NCBI GenBank assembly: GCA_013151445.1 | Contig: JAADIG010000020.1 | Span: 1-55,147 of the forward strand | Length of the DNA: 55,147 bases | Origin: Actinomycetota bacterium | GTDB lineage: Bacteria > Actinomycetota > Acidimicrobiia > Spongiisociales > UBA5794 | Direction of reading: 5' to 3' | Part shown: positions 624 through 42,178 of the stretch, in pieces | Numbering within the stretch: the first letter of the stretch is position 1 | Layout of the letters: the number at the start of each line of letters is the position of its first letter | The notes under the pieces: generated by a model | Told to the model about the DNA's origin: nothing | The model's database searches: none | Seen by the model: the letters and a program-made list of their open reading frames with translations, nothing else | Translations under genes and position numbers: made by a program

Positions 624-678
624 CCCGTTCTTGTGACGTTTGAATGGAATAATTCCATTCAAACGTCACAAGAACGGG
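624..678. terminator. Perfect 55-bp palindrome A, probable bidirectional terminator
   Basis: Two 27-nt arms are exact reverse complements around a single central A at 651. The arm begins CCCGTTCTTGTGACG. An RNA from either strand would fold into a very long hairpin. It follows the stop codon of the upstream gene by 12 nt. There is no clear T tract, so termination is inferred from position and structure. The identical palindrome is at 2176-2230. Confidence 0.7.
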
Positions 679-2164: not shown

Positions 2165-2323
2165 CGCCGAGTTTCCCCGTTCTTGTGACGTTTGAATGGA
2201 ATAATTCCATTCAAACGTCACAAGAACGGGTTGGTGGGGCAGAGGCCCTTGAGGATGAAGGTCCAGATCTCGTCGACGAGTTTCTTGCGGGACATGCGGC
2301 CGCTCTCTGAGTACCAGCGGTCG
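2162..2323. repeat. Direct repeat copy B (palindrome plus intact tetR 3' end)
   Basis: This is the second copy of the segment at 609-771. Here the tetR part is the genuine C-terminus of the regulator gene, so this is probably the parent copy. The similarity begins at the lipoprotein stop codon (TGACGCCGAGTTTC against TGAGCGCCGACTTTG in copy A), showing that the short spacer before the palindrome was copied as well. Confidence 0.85.
2176..2230. terminator. Perfect 55-bp palindrome B between lipoprotein and tetR (convergent terminator)
   Basis: It is identical to palindrome A: 27-nt arms around one central A at 2203. It lies between two convergent genes and overlaps the last codons and stop (2218-2220) of the minus-strand tetR gene, so it can act as a hairpin terminator for both. 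The right arm encodes the TetR C-terminus. Confidence 0.75.
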
Positions 2324-2805
2324 ATGGCGTTGAGGATGGACAACGTAAAGATGGTGGCGGTTTTCGGGTCGAGGTCCGAGCGCAGGCTTCCATCGGCCGC
2401 ACCTTCCTTCATGACCGAGGTAAACACGGCCTCGTACCGGTTGCGCGCATCAAGTACGTTCTGGCGGGCATCGTCGTCGAGCGCGGTCGCTTCATAGAGA
2501 TACGTGCGCACCTCGTCACGGTGCTCAAGCACGACGTCCACATGGCCTTCTATCAGTACGCGGAGCCGCTCCGCCGCGGTCCCCTCGACCGTGCCGACAG
2601 CGTCGGCCGATGTCTGGAAGAACCGTGCTCCGCGCTCGACAACCTCCACGAGGAGCTGCTGCTTCCCATCAACATGGGCGTACAGCGAGGAGCCAAGCAA
2701 CCCGAGTTCGCGACCCAGGTCACGCATCGACGTGCCGTGATACCCATACAGCGAGAACAACCGACCGGCAGTCTGAACCACATCCTCGCGCGTGACCCGT
2801 GTCAT
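2218..2805 (-). CDS. paaR: TetR-family repressor of the phenylacetate operon (PaaR-like)
   Basis: The 195-residue protein has a TetR helix-turn-helix at residues ~5-50 (TREDVVQTAGRLFSLYGYHG, SMRDLGRELG, LYAHVDGKQQLL), then a variable helical ligand domain. The start is the ATG at 2805, whose codon overlaps the paaE stop in an ATGA, so translation is coupled to the paa operon. TetR-type PaaR proteins that sense phenylacetyl-CoA are known in Thermus and some actinobacteria; being the last gene of a paa operon fits the same job here. The likely operator is the perfect palindrome AAACGAACGTTCGTTT at 6435-6450 in the paaA promoter, which would give negative autoregulation. The ligand is inferred. 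The 3' end is duplicated at 666-771. Confidence 0.85.
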   Translation of the reverse strand: MTRVTREDVVQTAGRLFSLYGYHGTSMRDLGRELGLLGSSLYAHVDGKQQLLVEVVERGARFFQTSADAVGTVEGTAAERLRVLIEGHVDVVLEHRDEVRTYLYEATALDDDARQNVLDARNRYEAVFTSVMKEGAADGSLRSDLDPKTATIFTLSILNAIDRWYSESGRMSRKKLVDEIWTFILKGLCPTNPFL

Positions 2806-3872
2806 ATGTCGAAGCTCAATACGACGGTCGGTGACACCGGATGGGACTGGCAGGTGAGGATCTGGCCGGCGTCGACCTCCTCCTGGGTGAGACACCAGTT
2901 GTGGTCCATGGTGACTTCTCCTTCGAGGACGATCGATCGACACGAGGCACACGCACCGTTGCGACACGAGAACGGTGCATCGCGACGCACGGATAGGACG
3001 TAGTCGAGGATCGGAGCCCCATCGGTAGGAACGACCGTAGTCGTGGTACGACCTCCAAGCGTGAAGTTCACCACTGACCCCTCCTCGGTGGCGGCAACCG
3101 GGGGAGCGGGGCGCACCGCGTCACGGTCTGCGAAGAAAAGTTCCTGGTGAATTGCGGCATCCGACACACCCCGGCTGCGCAGCAGCGCAATGGCATCGTC
3201 CACCATGGCCGCGGGGCCACAGAGAAACCACTCGTCGACCGACTCGGCATCTACCACTGATGAGAAAAGTGTCTCGAGCTTGCCCGTATCGATACGACCC
3301 TCGAACAGGGGGATTGTGTTCATCTCGCGGCTGAGAAAGTGCATCAGTACAAAGCGTGCGGGGAAGCGATCCTTGAGGGTCGCGAGTTCCTCCAGGAACA
3401 TGATGGATAGCCCATCCCGGTTGCCGAACAGCAACGTGAAGGCGCTGTCTGGTTCCTCCTCCAGGGTTGTCGCGATCATCGACATGATGGGCGTGATACC
3501 CGACCCGGCGGCGATCGCCAGATAGTGCATCGAGTTCGACGAATCGGGTTCGAGGACGAACTCACCGGTCGGGGGTGTGACGCTGAGGGTATCTCCAGCG
3601 GCAAGCCGGGTATTGGCAAAGGTCGAAAACACACCGCCATCGATCCGGCGAACCGCCACCCGCAGGTCCCCGGACGCTGCGCTGGAGCAGATCGAGTACG
3701 ACCGCCGGACGTCTTCTCCGTCGATCTCAGCACGAATGATGACATGCTGGCCGGGTGTGAACCGGTAGGACTCAGCGAGTTCGTTCGGTACGTCGAAGGT
3801 GACGGCCACCGAGTCGTCGGTGAGCGCGTCGACCGAACCAACGGTCAGAGTGTGAAATTCGGCAGCAGTCAT
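2802..3872 (-). CDS. paaE: Phenylacetyl-CoA epoxidase reductase subunit PaaE
   Basis: This 356-residue reductase passes electrons from NAD(P)H through FAD and a 2Fe-2S cluster to the di-iron oxygenase PaaA. It shows an FAD-binding RRSYSICSS motif near residue 60, a nucleotide-binding AAGSGITPIMSM near residue 125, and a C-terminal plant-type ferredoxin domain with CRNGACASC and a fourth Cys in ILTCQSHP. The ATG at 3872 shares one base with the paaD stop (TGATG); longer in-frame starts would run into paaD. Length and domain order are normal for PaaE. The stop overlaps the tetR start. Confidence 0.95.
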   Translation of the reverse strand: MTAAEFHTLTVGSVDALTDDSVAVTFDVPNELAESYRFTPGQHVIIRAEIDGEDVRRSYSICSSAASGDLRVAVRRIDGGVFSTFANTRLAAGDTLSVTPPTGEFVLEPDSSNSMHYLAIAAGSGITPIMSMIATTLEEEPDSAFTLLFGNRDGLSIMFLEELATLKDRFPARFVLMHFLSREMNTIPLFEGRIDTGKLETLFSSVVDAESVDEWFLCGPAAMVDDAIALLRSRGVSDAAIHQELFFADRDAVRPAPPVAATEEGSVVNFTLGGRTTTTVVPTDGAPILDYVLSVRRDAPFSCRNGACASCRSIVLEGEVTMDHNWCLTQEEVDAGQILTCQSHPVSPTVVLSFDI

Positions 3873-11751: not shown

Positions 11752-11791
11752 GGATTGTCAGCTGTCATCGAGACCCCATTTGATTGAGTGA

Positions 11792-11817
11792 GGGGGTGGA
11801 GCAGGTGCTCCACCCCC
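11792..11817 (-). terminator. GC-rich hairpin between binding-protein and permease genes
   Basis: GGGGGTGGAGCA and TGCTCCACCCCC form a 12-bp stem around GG, extendable by one A-T pair. It lies 16 nt past the binding-protein stop and before the permease start on the minus strand. Such internal hairpins commonly cut transcription or protect the upstream mRNA, raising binding-protein levels over permease levels. Confidence 0.7.
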
Positions 11818-11833
11818 TTGACTCGTGTGCTCT

Positions 11834-20123: not shown

Positions 20124-20210
20124 GCGGAGAAGCCCCTCTGTCGTGGTTCCTACCCCGAATGCCTTGGGAAAACCCTACCGCGATTCCGAGTTTCCGCAAG
20201 AAACTATCTC

Positions 20211-20260
20211 CGTTCTGGCGTCCATTTGGGCCATATATGGCCCAAATGGACGCCAGAACG
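20211..20260. terminator. Perfect 50-bp palindrome between divergent genes
   Basis: Two 25-nt arms are exact reverse complements with no loop; each begins CGTTCTGGCGTCC. It lies between the start of the SLH gene (20123, minus) and the start of phzF (20310, plus), so it cannot end either gene. It shares its outer CGTTCT and a CCGAGTTTCC flank with palindromes A and B, suggesting one repeat family. Function unknown; terminator is the nearest listed type. Confidence 0.55.
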
Positions 20261-20309
20261 AGGACTTGGGGACGTTTTCGGGTCGTTCTGTGGTCGGTAG
20301 GGTTTCCTC

Positions 20310-21182
20310 ATGAACTCACCACTGCACGTCGCGGCGTTTACCTCTGACCCGGCCGGGGGCAACATGGCGGGGGTGGTGTTCGGTGAGCATGGCACCCCGG
20401 CCGAAATGATGGCCACCGCCGCCGAAGTCGGGTATTCGGAGACTGCGTTTCTTGCTGCGACCGATGATCCCTCGGTGTGGCTCACCCGGTACTTTGCCCC
20501 CGAGACCGAGGTCGACTTCTGCGGTCATGCCACGATTGGAGCCGGTGGTGTTCTGGGAGGGCGGTATGGTCCCGGTCGGTACACGTTGCAGACGAACATC
20601 GGGGAGATTCCTGTCGACGTAAGTGTGGATGACGTCGGTGACGTGCGGGTGACGCTCACGTCGATACCTCCCACGGAGGTCCCCCTCGCCGATGAGGCTT
20701 TCGCGGCCGCGCTGGTCGCACTCGGGTACCTTCCCGACGATCTGGACAATACTTTCCCCCCGGCGGTCTTTAACGCGGGGGTGAACCATTTGATGGTGCC
20801 GCTCAAGAACCGCAGCGTTCTTGCATCGCTCGACTACGACTTTGCAGCACTGAAGGTGCTCACGGAAACCGAGAACTGGACGACGGTCAACTGTTTCGTC
20901 CGTACCGGACACAACGAATATCATGTACGCAACCCGTTCCCAATCGGTGGAATTGTGGAGGATCCGGCAACCGGGGCGGCCGCCGCTGCGTTCGGCGGGT
21001 ACCTTGCCCATCACAACTTCGTTGATGTTCCCGGCACCGTGCAGGTGTTCCAGGGCTATGACATGGACTCACCTAGCCAGATCACGGTTGATATTCCTGG
21101 TGACGCTGAATCGGGGATCCGGGTCAGCGGATCGGCCGTGGTGCTTGCGGAACCTTTCGATCGTCAGCCAACGTCGGAGTGA
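20310..21182 (+). CDS. PhzF-family isomerase/epimerase
   Basis: The 290-residue protein matches the PhzF fold of two similar halves: GNMAGVV in the first, YSETAF with the likely catalytic Glu44, DFCGHATIGAGG, and in the second half NPFPIGGIVEDPATGAAAAAFGGYL. PhzF of phenazine synthesis isomerises dihydrohydroxyanthranilate, but most relatives sit outside phenazine clusters and have unknown substrates; no phenazine genes are near here. The ATG at 20310 lies 50 bp after the large palindrome. A lipoprotein gene follows after 37 bp. The substrate is not predictable. Confidence 0.88.
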   Translation: MNSPLHVAAFTSDPAGGNMAGVVFGEHGTPAEMMATAAEVGYSETAFLAATDDPSVWLTRYFAPETEVDFCGHATIGAGGVLGGRYGPGRYTLQTNIGEIPVDVSVDDVGDVRVTLTSIPPTEVPLADEAFAAALVALGYLPDDLDNTFPPAVFNAGVNHLMVPLKNRSVLASLDYDFAALKVLTETENWTTVNCFVRTGHNEYHVRNPFPIGGIVEDPATGAAAAAFGGYLAHHNFVDVPGTVQVFQGYDMDSPSQITVDIPGDAESGIRVSGSAVVLAEPFDRQPTSE

Positions 21183-42019: not shown

Positions 42020-42083
42020 GCGCATGCTGCCGCTATCTGGTGGCGGACCAAATGCGGCCACGATTCGTAGCCGGTTGCCCGGC

Positions 42084-42130
42084 GTCGAAGATGACGGACC
42101 GCAATCCAGGTGCGGTCCATCATCTTCGAC
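42084..42130. terminator. Long hairpin between convergent genes
   Basis: A 20-nt arm (GTCGAAGATGACGGACCGCA) pairs with 42111-42130 at 19 of 20 positions around a 7-nt loop. It lies between the zincin and SRPBCC genes, both ending toward it, so it is a likely bidirectional terminator. Part of its 3' arm is repeated in tandem downstream. Confidence 0.75.
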
Positions 42131-42178
42131 ACCATCATCTTCGACACCATCATCTTCGACACCATCATCTTCGACACC
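42119..42178. repeat. Four perfect tandem copies of a 15-bp unit
   Basis: The unit ATCATCTTCGACACC occurs at 42119, 42134, 42149 and 42164 without any change, ending 9 bp before the SRPBCC stop. Each copy includes TCATCTTCGAC, complementary to the left arm of the hairpin at 42084, so the arm has four possible partners. The repeat lies outside both genes. Confidence 0.95.

Follow-up and report, generated by a model that had tools for sequence, protein, structure and literature searches.

The stretch of DNA analysed here (the window, 55,147 nt) carries, between two divergently transcribed genes, a palindrome with no loop at 20211-20260, which raises the question of what kind of element stands there, whether it belongs to a family and what, if anything, it does for its neighbours (Table 1). 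An earlier note, made from the letters of the window, had placed it with two other palindromes on the strength of a shared edge, and had proposed a REP-like or mobile palindrome family.

Table 1. Features of the window around the three palindromes
Feature	Position	Strand	Remarks
Type-A palindrome, 2 x 25 nt, perfect, centre TATATA	20211..20260	.	Identical on both strands; copies with 0-3 mismatches elsewhere in the genome
Left frame, CGTTCTGG	20211..20218	+	Superfamily frame YGTTYTNG
Right frame, CCAGAACG	20253..20260	-	Complement of the left frame
Neighbour gene, SLH/beta-helix	17862..20123	-	Start 87 nt left of the palindrome
Neighbour gene, PhzF (PhzC-PhzF family)	20310..21182	+	Start 49 nt right of the palindrome
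Upstream motif of the earlier note, CCGAGTTTCC	20186..20195	+	Common to 2167-2176 and few other members
Type-B palindrome, 51-nt unit	626..676	.	Within the perfect inverted repeat 624-678
Type-B palindrome, same sequence as 626-676	2178..2228	.	Contains the stop codon of the TetR gene
TetR-family gene	2218..2967	-	Last codons and stop within the second type-B palindrome; start per ORF list, placed at 2805 by the crude gene caller

The palindrome and its family in the genome

The arms of the palindrome, CGTTCTGGCGTCCATTTGGGCCATA and TATGGCCCAAATGGACGCCAGAACG, form 25 of 25 pairs with a spacer of 0, as the earlier note had seen, and its judgement that such arms are rare by chance was well founded, about 1e-10 palindromes of this kind being expected by chance in the window. 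Perfect inverted repeats with arms longer than 13 nt and a spacer of at most 12 number three in the whole window (at 20211, 624 and 2176), and the next-best exact inverted repeat within the same spacer limit has 13-nt arms. Those at 624-678 and 2176-2230 are identical to each other, with 27-nt arms and a 1-nt centre, and the edge CGTTCT common to all three palindromes is genuine and proved to be the signature of a superfamily. Folded as RNA, the palindrome at 20211 (both strands) and that at 2178 (one strand) reach about -55 to -58 kcal/mol, with z about -10.

Two features of the window touch on these palindromes. A duplication (613-771 and 2165-2323, 94% over 159 bases) comprises the type-B palindrome together with the end of the TetR gene next to it, the 624 copy holding the tail of the gene only. 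Two more strong hairpins, at 11791-11818 and 42081-42133, are of an ordinary kind and lack the frame.

The upstream motif CCGAGTTTCC, which the earlier note had counted among the shared marks, is indeed present beside both the 20211 and the 2176 palindromes. However, CGAGTTTCC lies within 60 nt of the palindrome at only 3 of the 88 family sites described below (these two and C95:10930), so that it does not belong to the family in general; the motif was dropped as a component of the element, yet three such 9-mers beside palindromes exceed chance. A different motif, GGTAGGGTTT, occurs once per strand on either side of the 20211 palindrome (20170-20180 and 20296-20305), facing outwards, and the pair may possibly form parts of divergent promoters.

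The genome to which the window belongs (G000; 159 contigs, 3.07 Mb) was searched with the 25-nt type-A arm; allowing up to three mismatches, the arm matched 16 times forward and 18 times in reverse, and a reversed control not at all. The general pattern YRTTYTNG-n28..44-CNARAAYR was found in 71 places (control, 6), and the narrower YGTTYTNG-n32..36-CNARAACR in 52 (control pattern, 3). Cataloguing every near-palindrome in about 335 kb of G000 stretches taken around pattern matches yielded, within those stretches, 62 distinct superfamily places. These belong to type A (GGCGTCCATTTGGGC-nn-TATA, 50 nt), which includes the 20211 copy; type A' (GGCGTCCAATAACGCACC and near variants, 47-57 nt); type B (CGTTCTTGTGACG-n-AYWRT-n-CGTCACAAGAACG, 51 nt), which includes the other two copies of the window; and a few other types. 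With runs of N excluded, all near-palindromes of at least 21 pairs out of 25 in this DNA are framed or closely frame-like. The family proposed in the earlier note is thus wider than had been guessed; the genome search that it suggested, with a lack of further members or of the shared edge as the result that would count against it, returned many framed members.

The half-site GTTCTTGTGACG was found outside palindromes in 1 of 67 instances in the same 335 kb, near the end of a stretch examined. A DNA-uptake sequence, of which many single copies and a fraction of inverted pairs would be seen, was rejected because free half-sites are absent at this level.

Perfect palindromes could also be artefacts of assembly, and several copies do lie at contig ends (C66:42, C79:42, the end of C109 and the end of C89). 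The same palindromes, however, stand at orthologous places in a separate assembly with arms that covary, and others lie inside the 55-kb contig of the window, so that an artefact is hardly credible.

Recurrence among relatives and variation of the arms

The separate assembly is that of Bacterium BMS3Bbin02 (G001), a public genome of the same genus as G000, whose class we take to be Acidimicrobiia. It holds 14 forward matches of the 19-nt type-A core; a third species of the genus (G002) has one half-unit, and among the remaining 135 genomes of the order type A is absent, bar one lone 16-mer in G027. The frame reaches further than the arms. Of 138 genomes in the order, 23 contain it at least 10 times, and the control never exceeds 4; framed units with different inner arms, such as CGTTTTCGCGCG, are present in G010-G014, and in G053, from another family, the matches listed are mainly of type B with CGTTCTCGTGACG. 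Genomes of one genus can differ sharply, one having many units and another none (G126 against G125, G131 against G132, G088 against G087). A sample of 396 genomes of the phylum comprised 45 in the class and 351 outside it. Besides G000 and G012, the class genomes above the control were G485 (24), G403 (11), G480 (8), G168 (6), G519 (6) and G268 (5), the listed matches of G168, and in part those of G480 and G403, not being palindromic in look. Outside the class, none of the 351 genomes had more than five matches, as in the control. With any length from 40 to 64 nt allowed, 23 of 27 matches in G485 measure 52 nt, as do 6 of 9 in G519, where one more measures 53. The frame and the length of 50-52 nt therefore recur across the order and the class, and the inner arms are specific to lineages. 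In one genome (G126, L184 611-733), two identical 51-nt units form a tandem repeat, 72 nt apart.

An origin in phages or plasmids was rejected, given that no match was found among viral contigs for type A or type B, among plasmids for the window site or the type-B unit, or among phages for the type-B unit. Rfam returned no match at gathering score, and sub-threshold matches, in five loci, were to microRNA hairpins only.

Among 31 type-A copies of G000 and G001, positions 0, 1, 4, 15, 21 and 22 vary on both arms together, and pairing at positions 0, 4, 15 and 21 within a copy (0.77, 0.90, 1.00 and 0.81) exceeds that across copies (0.52, 0.62, 0.88 and 0.56). In the 33 type-B copies of G000, the outer 13-mers are identical in 65 of 66 arms; in G001, the outer 13 nt are of several types. 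Pairing of the inner type-B arms in G000 is slightly higher within copies (254/396) than across them (240.5, sd 7.9), and in the 10 copies of G001 it is no better within than across (64/120 against 70.9). Over the 8 nt outside the type-B unit in G000, pairing is clearly higher than by shuffling (147/264 against 117.9, sd 6.8). This pairing beyond the unit is not explained by the simple insertion of a fixed unit, and it counts against a mobile repeat. Matching arms can result from selection for the hairpin or from template switching in replication, and both fit alike; template switching (see PMC7202029) is known to bring imperfect palindromes closer to perfection.

The invariance of the outer 12-13 nt, the constant length of 50-52 nt and the conserved centre are also what would be seen if the palindromes were sites of a double-strand DNA-binding protein, such as a global regulator or a nucleoid or segregation protein, and some copies do lie between divergent promoters. 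Such a protein would nevertheless have to accommodate A' copies of 47, 49 and 57 nt, which pair near-perfectly despite an altered spacing of their arms; lone half-sites were not found, and the copies are biased towards gene ends and often absent at orthologous sites (see below). Taken together, these points make binding sites an improbable account of the family.

Position at gene ends and transcript termination

Gene calls came from a crude, purpose-made caller that produced some over-long genes, and all genomes are fragmented assemblies; in this setting, 88 family sites in three genomes fell into 37 between convergent genes, 21 between codirectional genes, 12 between divergent genes, 12 inside genes and 6 at contig edges, several of those "inside" genes, among them the G001 ortholog of the window site, reflecting an over-long start. 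In the loci examined, a copy was present in 37 of 88 convergent gaps, 20 of 235 codirectional gaps and 12 of 75 divergent gaps, a bias towards convergent gaps with an odds ratio of 6.3 (p = 1.4e-10). A gene 3' end lies within 40 nt of 58 of the 88 copies. In nine cases the stop codon falls within the palindrome, and in five of these it occupies the same place of the type-B unit, 11 nt into it (L112 3218, L120 3055, L104 713, L109 3056 and window 2178). A type-B unit so placed at a gene end adds Pro-Phe-Leu-stop to the protein, an ending that is seen for L112.

This distribution invites the explanation that the palindromes are bidirectional terminators selected at gene ends, with the similarity of copies arising from conversion or reuse. 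Closeness to stop codons, preference for convergent genes and the stability of the hairpins all speak for it, as does the composition of the approach to the hairpin, which on both strands is C-rich and G-poor (C 0.45, G 0.15, compared with C 0.34 and G 0.28 at 218 other gene ends) and would suit Rho. The copy behind the HU gene (L101 3035-3100; G000 C1:43534) is followed by GGGGTTTTTC and is the sole one that resembles a U-tract terminator; its G001 ortholog has an unrelated hairpin at that place. Elsewhere the U-tract is missing, however, TTTT being found within the next 12 nt on just 1 of 176 sides, so that stopping would need Rho or another factor. Terminators, moreover, have no need of an invariant 13-nt sequence, a fixed length of 50-52 nt or a frame common to a whole class; 12 copies occupy divergent gaps, and 18 of 20 orthologous sequences do without the palindrome (see below). 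A simple terminator was rejected as the main account, since no T-run follows the hairpin and both sequence and length are constrained; selected bidirectional terminators as such we regard as possible, if doubtful.

At 20211 itself the flanking genes diverge, making this site an exception to the gene-end bias of the family, and a 3'-end role there is unlikely because the site stands between two divergent genes. The earlier remark that the palindrome is not needed as a terminator at that place therefore fits this site, but it does not extend to the family, most copies of which lie behind stop codons. The twelve copies between divergent genes, that at 20211 included, count against a mobile repeat as well. 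At the orthologous site of G001 the palindrome is present with the same flanks, and the 20211 copy probably sits there passively (or as a promoter insulator) and predates the split from BMS3Bbin02.

Presence, absence and likeness to known repeats

Among the orthologs of 23 flanks listed for G001 and G002, 20 sequences for 18 sites were compared. Eighteen of these sequences have no palindrome, some of the empty sites having only one clear flank; L111 has one in G001, and L022 retains a remnant arm there. None of the 12 G002 orthologs has a palindrome. Both flanks match by eye in 13 of the 20 sequences, and the unit is missing in 11 of these 13. Conversely, G000 and G001 share units in the same place at eight sites, including the window site, which indicates that some copies are old and argues against free movement; at one place (C24:25052) the unit is of type A' in G000 and of type A in G001. 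The earlier note's term "mobile" thus finds indirect support, drawn from the comparison of genomes, in the empty orthologous sites and in the one-sided breaks of gene order described next.

Between G000 and G001, breaks of gene order occur at 9 of the 18 gaps with a palindrome and at 3 of the 35 without one (p = 0.0013); the loci had been chosen for holding palindromes, several of the nine breaks may share one event, and the match at L019 is weak. These breaks would also be expected if the palindromes were recombination sites bounding gene cassettes, in the manner of integron attC sites, with genes gained and lost between them. Thirteen intervals between neighbouring sites are shorter than 2.5 kb, where 3.0 are expected; contig C265 of G001 reads palindrome, two genes, palindrome where G000 has a single palindrome (C89:3622), and G000 has homologs of the two genes at another place, there too with a palindrome on each side; and C15 of G001 has a second, decayed palindrome with about 600 extra bases. 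At C47 of G001, by contrast, an insertion at such a place has no palindrome on either side, which goes against the cassette idea, and passive recombination between short repeats is also possible. In both genomes, DUF559/MTES_1575 nuclease-like genes with an AbiEi-like N-terminal part stand between two palindromes (L116 3124-4047, L154 1247-2164).

Integron attC sites have the ends RYYYAAC...GTTRRRY. Like the units described here, they are folded palindromic sites beside genes, between which genes are gained; the units differ from this consensus in their ends, and they are dispersed rather than arrayed, with genes in mixed orientation. Gene cassettes are kept as a rival only, and an unlikely one, because the genes so bounded are ordinary in kind and the counts of breaks are small.

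As to what might move the units, the earlier note had pointed to a RAYT-type transposase. This link is not supported: the Y1/RAYT transposase (PF01797) was found in none of the three genomes of the genus, the search control being positive in 5 of 14 named genomes, and a REP mobilised by RAYT was rejected for this reason. TIR transposons and MITEs have terminal inverted repeats and a direct duplication of the target site; the units have inverted ends, and at the borders of the 88 copies direct repeats of 2-9 nt are not in excess, so that no such duplication was seen. In G001, a type-A palindrome is interrupted by a gene for a transposase with an rve domain, on an element that we presume to be IS30-like, and 3 bp appear to be duplicated (C170; L139 3064-4327); in G002 the end of a similar element abuts a half-unit (L030, about 1460-1525). 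The element uses the palindrome as a target, and nothing shows it making or moving palindromes.

The same situation is known from insertion sequences of the IS30 family and others that target palindromes or REPs, several of which use REPs as targets according to the relevant part of PMC1525189; the palindrome here serves as a target only. With RAYT/TnpA-REP systems and REPINs, as covered in part of PMC8266576, the units share a conserved foot motif joined to a hairpin, and the model assumed here is likewise one in which an enzyme acts in trans on non-autonomous copies; the three genomes of the genus differ in having no Y1 transposase, and the units in having no GTAG.

The units resemble REPs of the GTAG and CGTC super-families, which are likewise short, dispersed intergenic palindromes with a bias to gene 3' ends, a conserved tag and lineage-specific stems. 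In the passages of Di Nocera et al. (2013; PMC3733652) that treat them, REPs measure 20-40 bp, have at one end a tag (GTAG or CGTC) that stays unpaired, and for the most part occupy convergent or codirectional gaps, no more than about 20 bp from 3' ends; CGTC REPs, too, have no known transposase, and Actinobacteria are not among the phyla that these passages name for them, nor does that word appear in the text. The units of the present family are dispersed palindromes biased to gene 3' ends as well, but at 50-52 nt they are longer, they are symmetric with no loop or nearly none, and their tag, CGTTYTNG, is a different one, paired within the stem at both ends. For these reasons they are REP-like and not REPs. 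Literature searches on the unit sequences, or on Acidimicrobi- together with repetitive extragenic palindromes, returned no description of the family; the passage of RepRanger (PMC12306157) that bears on the group gives REP counts for Acidimicrobium and no description of a framed unit of 50-52 nt.

On balance, the palindrome at 20211 is probably one copy of a dispersed, REP-like, non-autonomous repeat that is moved by a putative enzyme and acts as a 3'-end hairpin where it is transcribed, its mobility being inferred from orthologous sites with and without a unit. The unit is a sequence of 50-52 nt, nearly or fully self-complementary, with CGTTYTNG and its complement at the ends and inner arms that vary by type and lineage. 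A putative enzyme would recognise the folded unit, as single strand or cruciform, by the frame at its foot, and copy or move it. Copies would be retained at sites of low cost, chiefly directly after stop codons and in convergent gaps. When transcribed, a copy would form a very stable hairpin on either strand, which may end the mRNA, through Rho or another factor, or protect its 3' end. More tentatively, and with distinctly less confidence, the units may constitute a new class of doubly framed, loop-less palindromes of 50-52 nt, found across the class without RAYT and moved by a putative enzyme, whose copies also serve as joints for the gain, loss and rearrangement of genes.

Perfect loop-less palindromes of such length are expected to be unstable; those described here are nonetheless maintained in dozens per genome, and their ends and length stay the same wherever they recur in the class. 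Together with the fast change of the inner arms, this constancy suggests that some enzyme or binding partner recognises the ends; we know of none that does so. Pairs of orthologous loci with and without the unit make both its mobility and its role at 3' ends testable. A mover, if found, would represent a second route, besides RAYT, for the spread of REP-like repeats, and copies acting as 3'-end hairpins would be relevant to the way in which these bacteria end genes without a U-tract.
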